A stretch of DNA of 33,217 bases from assembly GCA_025459245.1 (NCBI GenBank), contig JALOQZ010000011.1, positions 1 through 33,217 of the forward strand, written 5' to 3'. The notes below the pieces were generated by a model that saw only the letters and a program-made list of their open reading frames with translations, ran no database searches and was not told the origin of the DNA. The DNA comes from Pirellula sp. (GTDB lineage Bacteria > Planctomycetota > Planctomycetia > Pirellulales > Pirellulaceae). How positions within the stretch are numbered: the first letter of the stretch is position 1; each line of letters starts with the position of its first letter. The position numbers were made by a program, and so were the translations under genes. Positions 10,620 through 16,891 of the stretch are shown one piece after another.

Positions 10620-11702
10620 TTAGGTAAACGGAGCAGGCCTACCGTAGTAGTAACCTTGCCCAAGCTCAAATCCCATCGCCGCGCAAACTTGATGCTCTGC
10701 TTCAGTTTCCACTCCTTCGGCAAGTGGTGTTGTTCCTAGATCTCGCGCCAAACGCACGAGTGCTGCTAAAAGCTCTTGCCGAGACGACGGCGCCTTGTCG
10801 ATGTCCCGTATCAACTGCATATCAAACTTGAGAACATCCGGTGGCTGTTCCCCGAGCTCCAACAATCGACCTTGGCCAGCACCGAAATCGTCATACGAAA
10901 GTTGCATCGAAAGATCGGTAAGGGCTTCTCTCAATCGACCGATCGAACGAGGGTCCGTCACAGAGGCTTCGTGGATTTCTAAAGTAATGCGGCTTTCCGG
11001 AAACTGTTGACGCAATCGAACCAAAGACTCGAGAAGCCGATCATTGACAACTTCGCAAGGGTGAGTGTTTAAGAAAAAATTCGATGTGGAATGGTTAGAT
11101 CGCGATGCAACGAGCAGCCCTTCTTCGCGGATCATCTCGCTTAGTGTAGCGTTCTGTCCCAAACGATCGGCTGCGCCAAAGATATTGGCTGGAGTCGTCA
11201 GCCCTTCCAGTTTGCTGCGAACCAGTAACTCATGAGCGATTAACTTCCTTTCCTTCATGGTGATAATGGGCTGAAAGAAAGGGATGATGGCGCGCTCGGT
11301 AAGCAACTTGTCAAAATGCAAGAGTGTTTGAGCCCAAGGCAAAATTCCTTGCTCATGCGTCGCACCCGTATCTGCTCGCGCCTCTTTGCCAACACGAAAA
11401 AGCGCGTTGCCAAATTGGAGCAAGTCACCTTCTTTGACCAAGCTCCTGTGCACCGGAGTGCAATTCAAAAATGTACCGTTCGTACTGCGGAGATCTTCGA
11501 CCCACATCCCTTCGTCGTCAAAGGAGATTCGTGCATGCTTCTTGGAAACCGAGACCTCGGGGATACAAACATCCGTCTCGTTTGTTCGGCCGATGACCAG
11601 AGGCCTTTGCTGCAATGCAATGGTTCTCTTTTGTTGCTCGCCAGGTCCGAATTCAACCAATGTCCAACAGCTATTAGCGCAAGCGAGAGTTTCACAGCTC
11701 AT
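10620..11702 (-). CDS. FHA domain-EAL domain fusion, putative c-di-GMP phosphodiesterase
   Basis: A 360-residue cytoplasmic protein. Residues ~12-106 form an FHA phosphothreonine-binding domain, with Gly-Arg at 38-39, Ser-Lys-Lys-His at 53-56 and the STNGT motif at 73-77. Residues ~125-358 form an EAL domain. It has HELLVRS in place of the usual EALLR, keeping Glu158, and then Asn212, Glu242/Glu245 in LEIHE, Asp271-Asp272 in YDDFGAG, Lys292, Glu329 in AEGVE and Gln349 in GQGYYYG. These are the residues expected for metal and substrate binding, so c-di-GMP hydrolysis is plausible; no GGDEF domain is present. The gene starts 29 bases after the stop of the giant kinase and is almost surely in the same operon. 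FHA recognition of a phosphothreonine made by that kinase is the natural inference. Confidence 0.9.
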   Translation of the reverse strand: MSCETLACANSCWTLVEFGPGEQQKRTIALQQRPLVIGRTNETDVCIPEVSVSKKHARISFDDEGMWVEDLRSTNGTFLNCTPVHRSLVKEGDLLQFGNALFRVGKEARADTGATHEQGILPWAQTLLHFDKLLTERAIIPFFQPIITMKERKLIAHELLVRSKLEGLTTPANIFGAADRLGQNATLSEMIREEGLLVASRSNHSTSNFFLNTHPCEVVNDRLLESLVRLRQQFPESRITLEIHEASVTDPRSIGRLREALTDLSMQLSYDDFGAGQGRLLELGEQPPDVLKFDMQLIRDIDKAPSSRQELLAALVRLARDLGTTPLAEGVETEAEHQVCAAMGFELGQGYYYGRPAPFT

Positions 11703-11731
11703 AGTTTATGCTTTCTGGTTTCTTAAATGGA

Positions 11732-14700
11732 TCAAGTTCCACTGGCTATGGAAGCTTGCAATGTTGTTTTTGATTTGTCGGGGCTCCACTCCTGAAGCAG
11801 TATCGTTCGATCGCCCGATACCCTTCGTTCGCAGAGGGCTGTTTCCACCGCAGAATCCCTAAGGAGATGCTGGACCATCGGGTCGCTAAAAATCGATTCC
11901 GTCATCGTCACTCCCGATTGATGCGACGAAGCAAGCTGCATGACTAGACGAGCGTTGCTTCCGAAGTAGTCTAGTCGCCCGTTCTGACTCGAGATCAACA
12001 ACCGTCCTCGATGGATAGCGACACCTACCTCGAGCGACTCCAGCTGATCCCCGTTTGCCATCTCCGCTTGCAATCGAATCGCCAATCGAACGGCCGATGC
12101 GCAGTCTTGAAACGATGCTAACACCCCTTCGCTTACCGTTTTGACGATCGCGCCGCGGTACTGTGAAACGAGTGTCTCTACCGCAGAGAGAAAATTCAAA
12201 GCCTTTCGATAGGCCTCGGTGTCCCCGAGACGATCGTAGAGGGATTCGACATTGTTGATCTGGATGGCGACCAAAGTGAGATCTTCAGATGTCACAGGAA
12301 CATCGCTTTGGAAGACTTGGTCGGGAAAAAGTTTTCGGAATCTTGTCATCGCCGAAGCTGCCGCTGCGGTGACGATGTCATCTCGCCCAATGGTTCTTTC
12401 GATTCGGATTAGCTGCTGCTTTTCGAGGTCATTTTGGATGATCACGGACACCATTCCCTCTCGCAAATTAGGAATCGCACCTCCCTTTCCTAGTTTGCTG
12501 ATGGAGAACTCCAGTTGAGACGGCGCGTGTGAACTCCTTACGACGATCGATTGCGATTCGATCGATTGCGTTGAACGCAGCAAGTAATGACCCGTTTGCA
12601 TCGGCAAGTCGAGTTCGATCCGTTCTCCCGGTTGCAATCGTACTTGACCGATGACGTGTGGAGAATTGCCAGGTCCACCAATGCAGTACTTGCCCGAGTC
12701 GACATCGCGCAACTCTGGATGAACCGAAAAAACCATTTCGATGGTGTTTGCTAAGTTCGATTGAAAATCGGAGTCGCATGCCTCGCAGTTTGAATGGTTC
12801 GAGATTCGGGAGAGCAACGGCTCGGAGGATGCGGGTGCTTTGCAAGATGGGCAGAGGATATCCCAGTGCAACTGAAGCATTCCAACCGACGCGGCTACAA
12901 TGCACGCATCCACCATCTTGTCTGGATCGACCCCAAGTGTTTTCGCTAGCGAGATCGGTCGAATCTTTGAGGCTGCTTGTGGAGTCGCGAATCGAATGTA
13001 GTCGGACAACATCCGGCAAAGATCGAGGTCGATTCCCAATCGACGCATTTGTTCGGTTCGTTCCTCCAGTCTCTTGAGCCTAGCCCGAGAAAGCACAGGA
13101 GCCTCTTCGAAAGGATCAGCCGCGGACTCCGAATTCGATTGGGACTGAAGGTACTCGTCGATATGTTTGTAGACTCGATCGAGTGCCCGACCACCTTTCC
13201 AACCAGCCTCGATCGTCGAAACGATTTTGCCGAGCGTGTTGCGTGGCTCGATCTTCACCGTGTGAACCAAACGAGTCCCGCCTGAGGAGAGCGGAAACAA
13301 TTCGACAGAGCTCATAAACCACTTAAAGGGGCCGCTGGAAAACTCGCGCAGCACCCCCATTCGCTTTCCCTCGATCCACTCAAATGGATGCTCTTCCCAA
13401 GCGACTTGCAGGGCACCGAGTTGAAAGGAGCCGAACTTTCGAAGCCCTCGAACAGGATCTTTTTCGGTACGATACTTCACTGCCGGGAGACCTACCGCCC
13501 GATTGAGTCGATCGGTATCGCTCACCAAAGGCCATAAGTCGCGAGCCTTGCTCTGAAGGGTCCATTCGAAGGTACGGACCCAAAGCTTTTTCGAATCGTG
13601 TTCGGGCAATCGTGGGTGATCTTCAAGCTCCGAGGGCTCACCACTGAGCAATCGATTGATTTCAAGGAGCAATTGCGTCGCATCCGCAAACCGCTCCCTC
13701 GGATTCTTTGCAAGCATCCGCGTCACGAGTTGGCAAGTGCGATCGGAAATCTCGCGATTCTGTTTTTGCAGGTCAGGCACAGGATCAAAACACTGCATCG
13801 CTGCCGTTTTCATCGGATCATCCGATCGGAACGGCACGTCCCCTGTTAGCATTTCAAATAGCAAGATACCGACGGCATAAATATCGGTAGCTGGGCCTAT
13901 TTCCGATTGCCCTTTGCACTGCTCCGGTGCCATGTACATAGGAGTGCCGAGCATTGTACCTGCCCGAGTCACCTCCATCGAAGCCGACTGATGCATGTGC
14001 CTCGCGATTCCAAAATCGGAGAGTTTGATCTGCCAACCATCCATCGATCTGGTCGCCGGATCCTCAGAGTGAGATCGAGACGCCAAAAGAATATTGTCCG
14101 GTTTGATATCGCGATGAACGATTTGCTGCGCATGAGCTTGCGATAACGCTTTGCACAAGTCCGCAATGAATTGCAGGGATTCTCGTTCCGCGACAGGTTT
14201 TCGATCTCGAAGCCAAGTCTTCAACGTTGGCCCGTTGACGAATTCCATTGCTAAAAAGTGAAATCCATTCGCCTGGCCTACTTCGATTAACTCGGTGACA
14301 TACTCGTTCCTGACGCTAGCAAGTATCCGAGCCTCTTTCGTGAAGCGCCGAATGGCATGCGGATTATCACTATGCTGATTCAACAGAACTTTGATCGCAA
14401 CGGTCTGACCACTTCGCGTGTCTTTGGCTTGAAACACCATCCCCATCCCGCCTTGCCCGAGCAAGCGTTCAAGAAGGTAGTTTCCCAACATCTCCCCTGG
14501 TCGAAGTATTCGTTGGATCGTCGTTGTGCCGGATACAGGATGATCGATTGCCGAGATAAAGGTCTTCTCGTCGGTCTCTTCATCGCGATCGCCCGGGATT
14601 GGATGCTGTAGAGCGATCGCAACTTCACAGGTGGAATCGGATTTCTCTGCGTCTTCGGCCTGGATAAGTGACGAGTCAGGATGTTTACTGGGAGCATCGT

Positions 14701-15547
14701 CACGCACCGATACAGCCAGTGTTCGGTCGATGGGTGCGACCCATTCCGTTCGAAATGGATTCTTAGACTCCGGCAAGCATTCCCCGAGTGTTTTACACCA
14801 AGAATCAAAGCTGGATTCCAGCTCCGCCGTGTTGATTTCTTCGCGAGCCAATCTCTTCAGCGCCGCCCAAGGACGCGCAGGAATCTTGGAATTCTCGTCC
14901 TCGTTCTCCGAAGCTTGGAGAACAATTTGTTGCACCAAATGAATCGCGTCGCGCAAATCGGATTCGTAGAGTTCAGCAGCGTTCGGAAGAATTGAGTTCC
15001 GCTCGTGAAGGAACCGCTCCGTAAAGTCGCATTGGAGTCGCACGGGATCGCAGGAAACGACCTTTATTCCTTCAGCCTTCAAAGCACCGTGGTAGAGCCC
15101 TTGGGTACAAGCGGTATGAATGGTCCACAGAATGTGTAAGGCGACCTCGAGAAAAGACTCTCGGTCTGCATGGTTCAGAAAATCGGATAGCCGTTGGCAG
15201 GATTGCGATTCCAGGACGATTCGCGGAACCCCTTCCGAGCGACCGAACTCCACGACTGGAACGGCGATTGGATAGCGCAGCTTAACGATGCGGTCGCATT
15301 GAACGGCGCACGCGTCTTCCCACGTTGAATTGGTTTGGAGCCAAGGTAGGAATCGAATCTCTACATCGCTCTGCCGCAACTGGTCCCATGCGAGATAGGT
15401 TGGTGGTAGGGTACCTGATCGAATCCTCCAGTCCGTAAAGCGTTGATCTTTCTGGCTTAATTCAGGAGTCGTCACGATCGAGAGATCGCCGCCGATGCAG
15501 GGAACAGCTGTGTTAAAGAAACCCGCAGATGAAGTGAACGTGGACAT
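11732..15547 (-). CDS. Giant Ser/Thr kinase: pseudokinase, kinase, SRPBCC, DUF5939-like, degenerate cyclase
   Basis: A 1271-residue protein counted from the ATG at 15547; the frame also opens at a TTG at 15592. About residues 40-225 look like a degenerate kinase: an AIK-like VEIR and HGALKAEGIKV in place of HGDLKPENI. Residues 353-635 form a full Hanks-type kinase with GQGGMGMVF, Lys386, HRDIKPDN at 478-485, DFG at 511-513 and APE at 540-542, plus several threonines in the activation loop. Residues ~655-805 resemble an SRPBCC domain (LWPLVSDTDRLNRAVGLP, WEEHPFEWIEG). Next is a DUF5939-like region with Cys899, Cys902, Cys921 and Cys924. Residues ~1085-1255 resemble a class III nucleotide cyclase with key Asp residues missing. 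No membrane segment is apparent. It is followed after 29 bases by the FHA-EAL gene. Confidence 0.9.
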   Translation of the reverse strand: MSTFTSSAGFFNTAVPCIGGDLSIVTTPELSQKDQRFTDWRIRSGTLPPTYLAWDQLRQSDVEIRFLPWLQTNSTWEDACAVQCDRIVKLRYPIAVPVVEFGRSEGVPRIVLESQSCQRLSDFLNHADRESFLEVALHILWTIHTACTQGLYHGALKAEGIKVVSCDPVRLQCDFTERFLHERNSILPNAAELYESDLRDAIHLVQQIVLQASENEDENSKIPARPWAALKRLAREEINTAELESSFDSWCKTLGECLPESKNPFRTEWVAPIDRTLAVSVRDDAPSKHPDSSLIQAEDAEKSDSTCEVAIALQHPIPGDRDEETDEKTFISAIDHPVSGTTTIQRILRPGEMLGNYLLERLLGQGGMGMVFQAKDTRSGQTVAIKVLLNQHSDNPHAIRRFTKEARILASVRNEYVTELIEVGQANGFHFLAMEFVNGPTLKTWLRDRKPVAERESLQFIADLCKALSQAHAQQIVHRDIKPDNILLASRSHSEDPATRSMDGWQIKLSDFGIARHMHQSASMEVTRAGTMLGTPMYMAPEQCKGQSEIGPATDIYAVGILLFEMLTGDVPFRSDDPMKTAAMQCFDPVPDLQKQNREISDRTCQLVTRMLAKNPRERFADATQLLLEINRLLSGEPSELEDHPRLPEHDSKKLWVRTFEWTLQSKARDLWPLVSDTDRLNRAVGLPAVKYRTEKDPVRGLRKFGSFQLGALQVAWEEHPFEWIEGKRMGVLREFSSGPFKWFMSSVELFPLSSGGTRLVHTVKIEPRNTLGKIVSTIEAGWKGGRALDRVYKHIDEYLQSQSNSESAADPFEEAPVLSRARLKRLEERTEQMRRLGIDLDLCRMLSDYIRFATPQAASKIRPISLAKTLGVDPDKMVDACIVAASVGMLQLHWDILCPSCKAPASSEPLLSRISNHSNCEACDSDFQSNLANTIEMVFSVHPELRDVDSGKYCIGGPGNSPHVIGQVRLQPGERIELDLPMQTGHYLLRSTQSIESQSIVVRSSHAPSQLEFSISKLGKGGAIPNLREGMVSVIIQNDLEKQQLIRIERTIGRDDIVTAAAASAMTRFRKLFPDQVFQSDVPVTSEDLTLVAIQINNVESLYDRLGDTEAYRKALNFLSAVETLVSQYRGAIVKTVSEGVLASFQDCASAVRLAIRLQAEMANGDQLESLEVGVAIHRGRLLISSQNGRLDYFGSNARLVMQLASSHQSGVTMTESIFSDPMVQHLLRDSAVETALCERRVSGDRTILLQEWSPDKSKTTLQASIASGT

Positions 15548-15663
15548 GCTTGAAACGCGGTTCGCGCGATCGCTCTCGTATAGGAATACCAAAATGGGAA
15601 CTACCTACCGTAGGATTCCAATTGAGGCACAAGGCGACCTGAGGCGCGAAGCGACGGAACATT

Positions 15664-15755: not shown

Positions 15756-16772
15756 CTATTGCAAGAGATCCACAGAGAAAGTCGTCGGAGAAGCCAGCGA
15801 CATCATAGGACTGTAGCGCCCACGGCGCGCTCTAAAGACATTTCCGCCCGGGTACCATTGAATACCTAAAAAAGCATCGACTGTGCCGGTATCACTTGGC
15901 ATGATGATGTTCGTTTCACCGTAGATTGCCAAGCTTGAGGTCAACGGCATCAGGACATCCGCACCGAACAAAAATGGATTGTTCTTCGATGCAGAAGGGC
16001 CTGTGACGGCGTTGTTTTCGCTGTGTTCGTCCGCGATACCAAACCATCCGGTCGTCTGAGCGCCCGTCTTCCAATAGTGACGAAGGTAAACGGAACCTTG
16101 ATCAATCGGTCGGAGCGTGACAGGTGTACTCGCGCCAAACACGCCTGTGTCGGAGTTCGAGCGAAAGGCGGCATTCACTCCGACTTCATTGCGAGGATTG
16201 AACAAATAGCTTCCTCGCACACGCCATTGCCCCAACTGGAAGGAATCAAAGGACTTCTCATACAGAAAGTCATGCACAAAGCCCCAACCGAATCCGCTAT
16301 CAGTTCGTTGAAAGACACCTAGGGTAGTAAAGCTTTGCGTGCGGCCAGTTTCCTCGCCGAGAAGCTCGTATACGCGAACGGCGTTGGACGAAGCGATAAT
16401 GCTTGAACCCGCTTGGACTCCAATCCCCCAAGCTTCGAAGACAGGAAAAGCTGTATTGATAGCCGCTTGCCCCCCAAGATTCGCATTAACACCGAAGTCT
16501 TGGGGCTGCTTCGAACCATCTAACGCAGCCAACAACGTAGTCTCTTCCCATCGCCAAAGACTGGGAAAGTAGCCGTTCCACTCCGACGCTTTGACCTCAG
16601 AGAAATCTTCGGGATCGACCTCTGTTATGGGGAGCCCGGGATCGTAGCTTTGATCCTGAAACATGACCTCAAAGTCAGCGGTCGCACTCTGAGCTTCGGG
16701 AAACATCGCTAACGCGAACGACAATCCGCTGCATACCAACCAGGTCGATAACTGACGAAATGAAACTCGCAT
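15756..16772 (-). CDS. Exported outer-membrane-like beta protein, unrecognised
   Basis: A 338-residue predicted exported protein. The chosen ATG at 16772 has a strong purine-rich ribosome site (GGGGGAGGGA) just upstream; an earlier start at 16811 would skip it. The N-terminus MRVSFRQLSTWLVCSGLSFA is a clear signal peptide. The rest is rich in alternating aromatic, Gly and polar strands (YFPSLWRWEETTLLAALDG, GWGFVHDFLYEKSF, VYLRHYWKTGAQTTGWFGIAD) and has a repeated barrel-like look, including a closing segment FLGIQWYPGG. Planctomycete genomes hold many such proteins with no assigned function; I do not assign a named family. It lies between the RNA methyltransferase and the kinase gene, all on the minus strand with separate gaps, so co-transcription is uncertain. 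Confidence 0.75.
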   Translation of the reverse strand: MRVSFRQLSTWLVCSGLSFALAMFPEAQSATADFEVMFQDQSYDPGLPITEVDPEDFSEVKASEWNGYFPSLWRWEETTLLAALDGSKQPQDFGVNANLGGQAAINTAFPVFEAWGIGVQAGSSIIASSNAVRVYELLGEETGRTQSFTTLGVFQRTDSGFGWGFVHDFLYEKSFDSFQLGQWRVRGSYLFNPRNEVGVNAAFRSNSDTGVFGASTPVTLRPIDQGSVYLRHYWKTGAQTTGWFGIADEHSENNAVTGPSASKNNPFLFGADVLMPLTSSLAIYGETNIIMPSDTGTVDAFLGIQWYPGGNVFRARRGRYSPMMSLASPTTFSVDLLQ

Positions 16773-16891
16773 GGGTCCCTCCCCCTTACGGTGAATCGAG
16801 AAGCACCGCAATTGATCAAGCTCGGAGATAAATCTTTAGAGCTGATCGGAACTGACTATTGCCTATCTTGCCATTTCTTTCTCCAGCTGCT

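Follow-up and report, generated by a model that had tools for sequence, protein, structure and literature searches.

The locus under study lies in a window of 33,217 nucleotides from a Pirellula sp. contig, the window being the whole stretch of DNA that was analysed, and comprises three genes in the order DUF6666 gene, multi-domain Ser/Thr kinase gene and FHA-EAL gene. The preliminary description had placed the kinase and FHA-EAL genes 29 bases apart on the same strand, and the ORF calls confirm this, with the gap running from 11703 to 11731. The putative pseudokinase and the dead cyclase within the kinase, the third gene, and a wider family of FHA-EAL/kinase loci are additions to that description. 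The features of the locus are collected in Table 1.

Table 1. Features of the DUF6666/kinase/FHA-EAL locus, in window coordinates.
Feature	Position	Strand	Basis
DUF6666 gene, upstream partner	15756..16811	-	PF20371; apparently secreted, from reading of the N-terminus
Multi-domain Ser/Thr kinase gene	11732..15547	-	ATG at 15547; possible TTG start at 15592 (P0001 numbering is from 15592)
Putative N-terminal pseudokinase, P0001 residues about 54-233	14894..15433	-	Profile-profile comparison
Protein kinase domain, P0001 residues 374-641	13670..14473	-	Pfam E 9.3e-54; VAIK/HRDIKPDN/DFG retained
SRPBCC-like domain, bounds approximate	13142..13582	-	Weak: homologue L047 matches PF10604 below cut-off; secondary structure in the model
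DUF5939, matched part, P0001 residues 855-965	12698..13030	-	Pfam
Class III cyclase fold minus the catalytic set (pseudocyclase), bounds approximate	11786..12298	-	AF2; Foldseek to Ma1120, Rv1900c, CyaB and others
FHA-EAL gene, 360 aa	10620..11702	-	ORF; Pfam FHA and EAL; AF2 model, pLDDT 91.8
FHA domain, residues 36-98	11409..11597	-	Pfam E 1.7e-16; pThr-binding residues retained
Thr115, most conserved linker residue, candidate phosphosite	11358..11360	-	Column count; AF2 disorder
EAL domain, residues 134-356	10635..11303	-	Pfam PF00563, E 2.8e-38; catalytic residues retained

The EAL catalytic residues Glu158, Asn212, Asp271-Asp272, Lys292 and Glu329 each stand at the position originally given for them. 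All six are invariant in the 19 FHA-EALs of groups A and B (alignment A2), and among 76 aligned FHA-EALs Glu158 is kept in 75, Lys292 in 74, Asp271 in 73, and Asn212, Asp272 and Glu329 in 72 each. In the FHA domain, Gly38-Arg39, Ser53, His56 and Asn75-Gly76, which we take to be the residues that bind phosphothreonine, are invariant in 60 of 60 sequences. The 50 matches listed by Foldseek are EAL proteins. Together, these findings predict a c-di-GMP phosphodiesterase with a phosphothreonine-reading FHA domain.

The linker between the two domains varies in length and sequence among FHA-EALs, and since linkers of 22-38 residues often contain a threonine by chance, we did not use the presence of any linker Thr (76/76) as evidence. 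Thr115, however, occupies the same column in 63 of the 76 sequences, compared with 14 for the next Thr column, and none of the remaining linker columns (105-121) exceeds 30/76 in this alignment (A4, which omits L046, L067, L086, L107, L108, L109 and L110 as truncated, short or very divergent). By analogy with the DgcB tail (below), Thr115 is a candidate phosphosite that would be read by the FHA domain. Since it is also retained in FHA-EALs without a nearby kinase, it may be a site for other kinases or have a structural role. The T-x-x-E/D pattern around it could cap the following helix; in the AF2 model the EAL helix begins at 120, and residues 112-117 appear disordered, with pLDDT below 50.

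The neighboring kinase carries the VAIK Lys, HRD and DFG motifs of Hanks-type Ser/Thr kinases, embedded in a stack of further domains. Its N-terminal part matched the family's kinase domains with a profile-profile probability of 99.2%, compared to 0.0-0.3% for five column-shuffled controls, and reduced sets lacking the most kinase-like members still gave 98.7% and 98.5%, over shorter aligned stretches. By this measure, a second, degenerate kinase probably makes up the N-terminal part. In five homologues (L177, L178, L179, L193 and L195), only 53 to 94 residues precede the kinase domain, too few for a pseudokinase.

The C-terminal end of the kinase has a class III cyclase fold (AF2 pLDDT 86.4); of the 50 matches that Foldseek lists for it, almost every one is an adenylyl or guanylyl cyclase. 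Because the cyclase end of one stand-alone protein had no match when searched against the PDB, we assigned the fold from Foldseek and the catalytic set from homologues and from the class III cyclase motif, namely two metal-binding Asp residues, a Lys, an Asn and an Arg. At these positions the window's kinase reads QKERQ rather than the catalytic DKDNR. The set is complete in none of 20 kinase-fused cyclase copies, among them the distant and differently arranged L203 and L208, while all five residues are intact in 8/8 stand-alone homologues examined (further ORFs of about 600 aa exist in the genome sample); a dead cyclase therefore accompanies the kinase fusion. Total loss of the catalytic residues is ruled out, since Lys is kept in 18 of the 20 copies and the second Asp in 9, with the first Asp in 1, Arg in 3, and Asn or both Asp residues in 0. 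Stand-alone proteins with SRPBCC-like, DUF5939 and cyclase parts and intact cyclase residues (L200-L202, L204-L207 and L209) come from other planctomycete lineages.

The kinase/FHA-EAL pair recurs in nine genomes, one pair in each, all from the window's own taxonomic order (families f1, f7 and f16). In all nine, FHA-EAL lies directly downstream of the kinase on the same strand, the two ORFs being called as overlapping or no more than about 60 bases apart. Apart from the window's own genome, three pairs come from the 59 near relatives that complete a near sample of 60 (G006, G016 and G059), four from a phylum sample of 392 genomes (G263, G391, G397 and G438), and one from a wider sample of 99 relatives searched for the kinase only (G479). 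Identity of the paired FHA-EALs to the window's copy falls as low as 35%. The FHA residues, Thr115, Glu158 and Asn212 are kept in 9/9 pairs and the other EAL residues checked in 8/8 (L046 ends at a contig edge), and the paired kinases keep HRD, DFG and the ATP-site Lys in 9/9 (the Lys by pattern in six and by eye in three).

The pair is thus a conserved unit and not a chance neighborhood. The preliminary description had taken lack of conservation in relatives as grounds to refute its proposal, and the pair survives this check: nine pairs from a single kinase clade span three families. The distribution is patchy, though: adjacent pairs occur in only 3/59 near relatives, and none was seen outside the window's order among the 392 sampled genomes of the phylum. 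The homologous kinase also occurs in G003, G015, G022, G130 and G166, where no FHA-EAL was found (three of these genomes are only 77-86% complete), and G002, G196 and G365 hold FHA-EALs, none of which adjoins a homologous kinase. In a rapidly built kinase tree, in which SH-aLRT is the sole measure of support, all paired copies fall into one clade (starred), 9 of whose 10 members are paired; the tenth, from G450, has as its genome's only full FHA-EAL a tubulin-type one about 156 kb away. A clade of only the nine paired FHA-EALs was rejected (p-AU 0.000137), whereas one that also includes L066 and L104 was not (p-AU 0.118), both sets having been chosen after the tree was inspected. The contig of L066 ends 186 bases past the gene, so that its partner is not assessable, and L104 has no kinase near. 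Because the FHA-EAL tree rejects the paired-only clade, the case for a single origin rests on the kinase tree; the FHA-EAL tree is compatible with one origin of the pair and does not prove one.

A DUF6666 gene adjoins the kinase in every pair. When the ORFs of 156 loci (the window, L045-L179 and L193-L212) were searched with a DUF6666 profile, nine matched, one per pair, whereas the 11 unpaired kinase loci and the other FHA-EAL loci had no match, a count to be read with the profile's origin in 7 of the 9 members, which remote members may escape, and with the short flanks of some unpaired loci. The gene lies upstream of the kinase on the same strand in five pairs (window, L045, L046, L047 and L195) and is divergent in four (L177, L178, L179 and L193); in a comparison of flanks it was common to the window, L045, L046 and the distant L177-L193 set. 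Pfam confirms DUF6666 in all three members checked (window, L177 and L195). The proteins have signal-like N-terminal stretches and share an invariant GSKQPQDFGVNA, and the profile had no match among PDB sequences up to E 1. DUF6666 is likely an envelope-side partner of the kinase/FHA-EAL unit, and placing it at the outer membrane is our guess.

To place the pair in a wider context, we assembled at least 83 distinct FHA-EAL loci from a named-genome scan (best 80 of 521) and the genome samples. Excluded beforehand were the duplicates L138 and L172, L076 (cut by a contig end, with no FHA part), L094 (broken frame), and L113 and L122 (long proteins of different make-up); L210 and L211 (tubulin type) and L212 (no kinase across its 15.5 kb) stand outside the 83. 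Within 6 kb, 9 loci have a pseudocyclase-type kinase, 36 are tubulin-type loci (a kinase ORF is present in 35, and L110 shows only an AAA-like gene before the contig end), 4 have other kinases, 26 have none, and 8 lie on contigs too short to judge. A kinase thus occurs within 6 kb of 48/83 loci, compared with an expectation of about 11%, derived from the 421 PF00069 matches of 8 planctomycete genomes (about 8.1 per Mb), a few loci being from other phyla. Since the loci are related, we also clustered them at 50% identity, and 13 of 23 assessable clusters carry a kinase.

The tubulin type joins kinase and Tubulin_2 in one protein, tandem with or divergent from FHA-EAL, with an AAA-like ATPase gene in nearly all loci. 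Such kinase-FtsZl1 proteins of planctomycetes are already known (PMC2875224 and PMC9871819), and the term FHA has 0 occurrences in the main text of PMC2875224. They are the commonest neighbor of sister FHA-EALs, including one at a paralogous locus in the window's genome (L048, 8040-14529), whereas the window locus itself has neither a Tubulin_2 domain nor an AAA-like neighbor and falls outside this class. A third, dCache-like type lies beside FHA-EAL at L090, from an Acidobacteriota MAG, and at L164, from a distant planctomycete, with dCache matches below the Pfam cut-off. At L164 (11638-13734), a gene for an FHA and trypsin-like protease protein adjoins the kinase and FHA-EAL. Weaker links are a HEAT-kinase 3 kb away at L093 and a plain kinase 1.3 kb away at L108, and no kinase was found within 6 kb at the proteobacterial L100, L102, L103, L105 and L106 (L101 is too short to judge). 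FHA-EAL beside a multidomain kinase had earlier been called an unusual arrangement; the arrangement is as described, but it is found with three or more kinase architectures and so is less unusual than supposed.

In the window's genome (G000, 82% complete), we found six GGDEF and three EAL matches, two of the three EALs being FHA-EALs, and no PilZ receptor was matched there or in G006. A kinase ORF is followed by an FHA-GGDEF ORF in the window's genome (L213, 6202-8390; overlapping as called) and, in the same order, in G006 (L214, 6528-8761; Pfam was run there). FHA-GGDEF beside a kinase is predicted to have the opposite, c-di-GMP-making activity. Of 17 FHA-GGDEF loci from the 60 genomes, 6 lie no more than 1.5 kb from a kinase ORF. 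The motif TR(F/I/V)SN occurs in the N-terminal tails of L215-L219 and L221 (14 of the 17 FHA-GGDEFs were aligned) and is possibly a self-ligand like that of DgcB.

GarA and OdhI, structures of which were among the PDB matches, use a self-binding FHA logic and have metabolic enzymes as targets; this logic resembles the switch proposed below, although neither protein has an EAL domain. Self-binding of this kind is alluded to in PMC6733907, which describes Bdellovibrio DgcB, an FHA-GGDEF protein in which T14 of a flexible N-terminal tail is the FHA ligand. DgcB, whose structures (6hbz, 6hc0 and 6hc1) were matched by the window's P0002, is the closest system in logic, with FHA gating a c-di-GMP enzyme as proposed here. 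The likeness has limits: DgcB makes c-di-GMP, whereas the window's protein, whose output domain by Pfam is EAL and not GGDEF, should break it, and the Thr ligand shown for the DgcB tail has as its counterpart a candidate in the linker. No kinase acting on DgcB was identified in that work, while for the window's FHA-EAL one is encoded next door. A Sorangium kinase-tail-FHA-GGDEF fusion mentioned in the same text (PMC6733907) likewise ties a kinase and a Thr tail to an FHA-gated c-di-GMP enzyme, but in one polypeptide and with a cyclase, compared to two genes and an EAL domain here. FHA-gated c-di-GMP synthesis and kinase-FtsZl1 proteins are therefore known, while no description of an FHA-EAL with its own kinase, nor the terms 'FHA-EAL' and 'DUF5939', was found in the full-text literature searched, most subscription papers being beyond its reach.

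Since the pair is kept together with a third gene across families, a direct switch from kinase to c-di-GMP is likely, and we consider it just probable that the kinase and FHA-EAL form one pathway in which a threonine phosphorylated by the kinase is read by FHA, altering phosphodiesterase activity; we infer both the flow of the signal and the sign of the change. The pseudokinase, SRPBCC-like, DUF5939 and dead-cyclase parts would serve to tune the kinase, and DUF6666 would act from the envelope side, in a role that we infer. The likeliest phosphosite would be Thr115, so that the protein would switch by binding itself, in one subunit or across subunits, in the manner of the DgcB tail, and the autophosphorylated kinase is our second candidate for the FHA ligand. 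Counted against this pathway are the 26 kinase-less FHA-EALs, the patchy distribution, the unpaired homologous kinases, the lack of a PilZ match, the retention of Thr115 without a kinase, and the failure of the paired FHA-EALs to form a clade by themselves.

That second ligand would equally suit a scaffold, in which FHA docks on the autophosphorylated kinase and an always-active phosphodiesterase forms a local c-di-GMP sink at an unchanged catalytic rate. The invariant FHA residues, an activation-loop Thr at the same place in 9/9 paired kinases and the large multi-domain make-up of the partner kinases would all fit, but the conserved Thr115 is left unexplained, and we regard docking of this kind as unlikely, though with an appreciable chance. 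Information might also run the other way, with FHA-EAL as a regulatory subunit through which c-di-GMP status would reach the kinase. At four loci beside kinase-tubulin genes (L077, L078, L079 and L111), all six FHA residues are intact and the EAL domain is degraded (Asn212, Asp272 and Glu329 altered in 4/4, Asp271 in 3, Lys292 in 2 and Glu158 in 1), as such a subunit might be; the checked EAL residues are nevertheless intact in the window's pair and the other pairs, which leaves this direction improbable for the unit. We give the same slim chance to a shared operon only, in which the genes would be co-transcribed with DUF6666 for one envelope process, the kinase and FHA-EAL making no contact and FHA answering other kinases. 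Both the 39-74 kinase matches in each of eight genomes examined and the 26/83 loci without a kinase within 6 kb agree with this. However, shared transcription alone does not predict several kinase architectures beside FHA-EAL, and in many tubulin-type loci FHA-EAL is divergent from the kinase and not co-transcribed.

Beyond the single pathway from kinase to FHA-EAL, the wider family may reflect a kinase-to-c-di-GMP code in Planctomycetota, an idea that we hold to be doubtful. Dedicated Ser/Thr kinases with interchangeable inputs (pseudokinase/pseudocyclase, tubulin-like or dCache-like) would each have an FHA-EAL eraser as partner, and a further kinase an FHA-GGDEF writer; the linker Thr would be the phosphoswitch, and a secreted DUF6666 envelope sensor would complete the window's module. 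To our knowledge, threonine phosphorylation and c-di-GMP have mostly been treated as separate subjects. Because the genes for the kinase and its presumed target are neighbors within a conserved unit, a test of their link would take two purified proteins and a single point mutant. If true, the pathway would supply the kinase-tubulin-like proteins of Planctomycetota, as well as DUF5939 and DUF6666, with functional partners.
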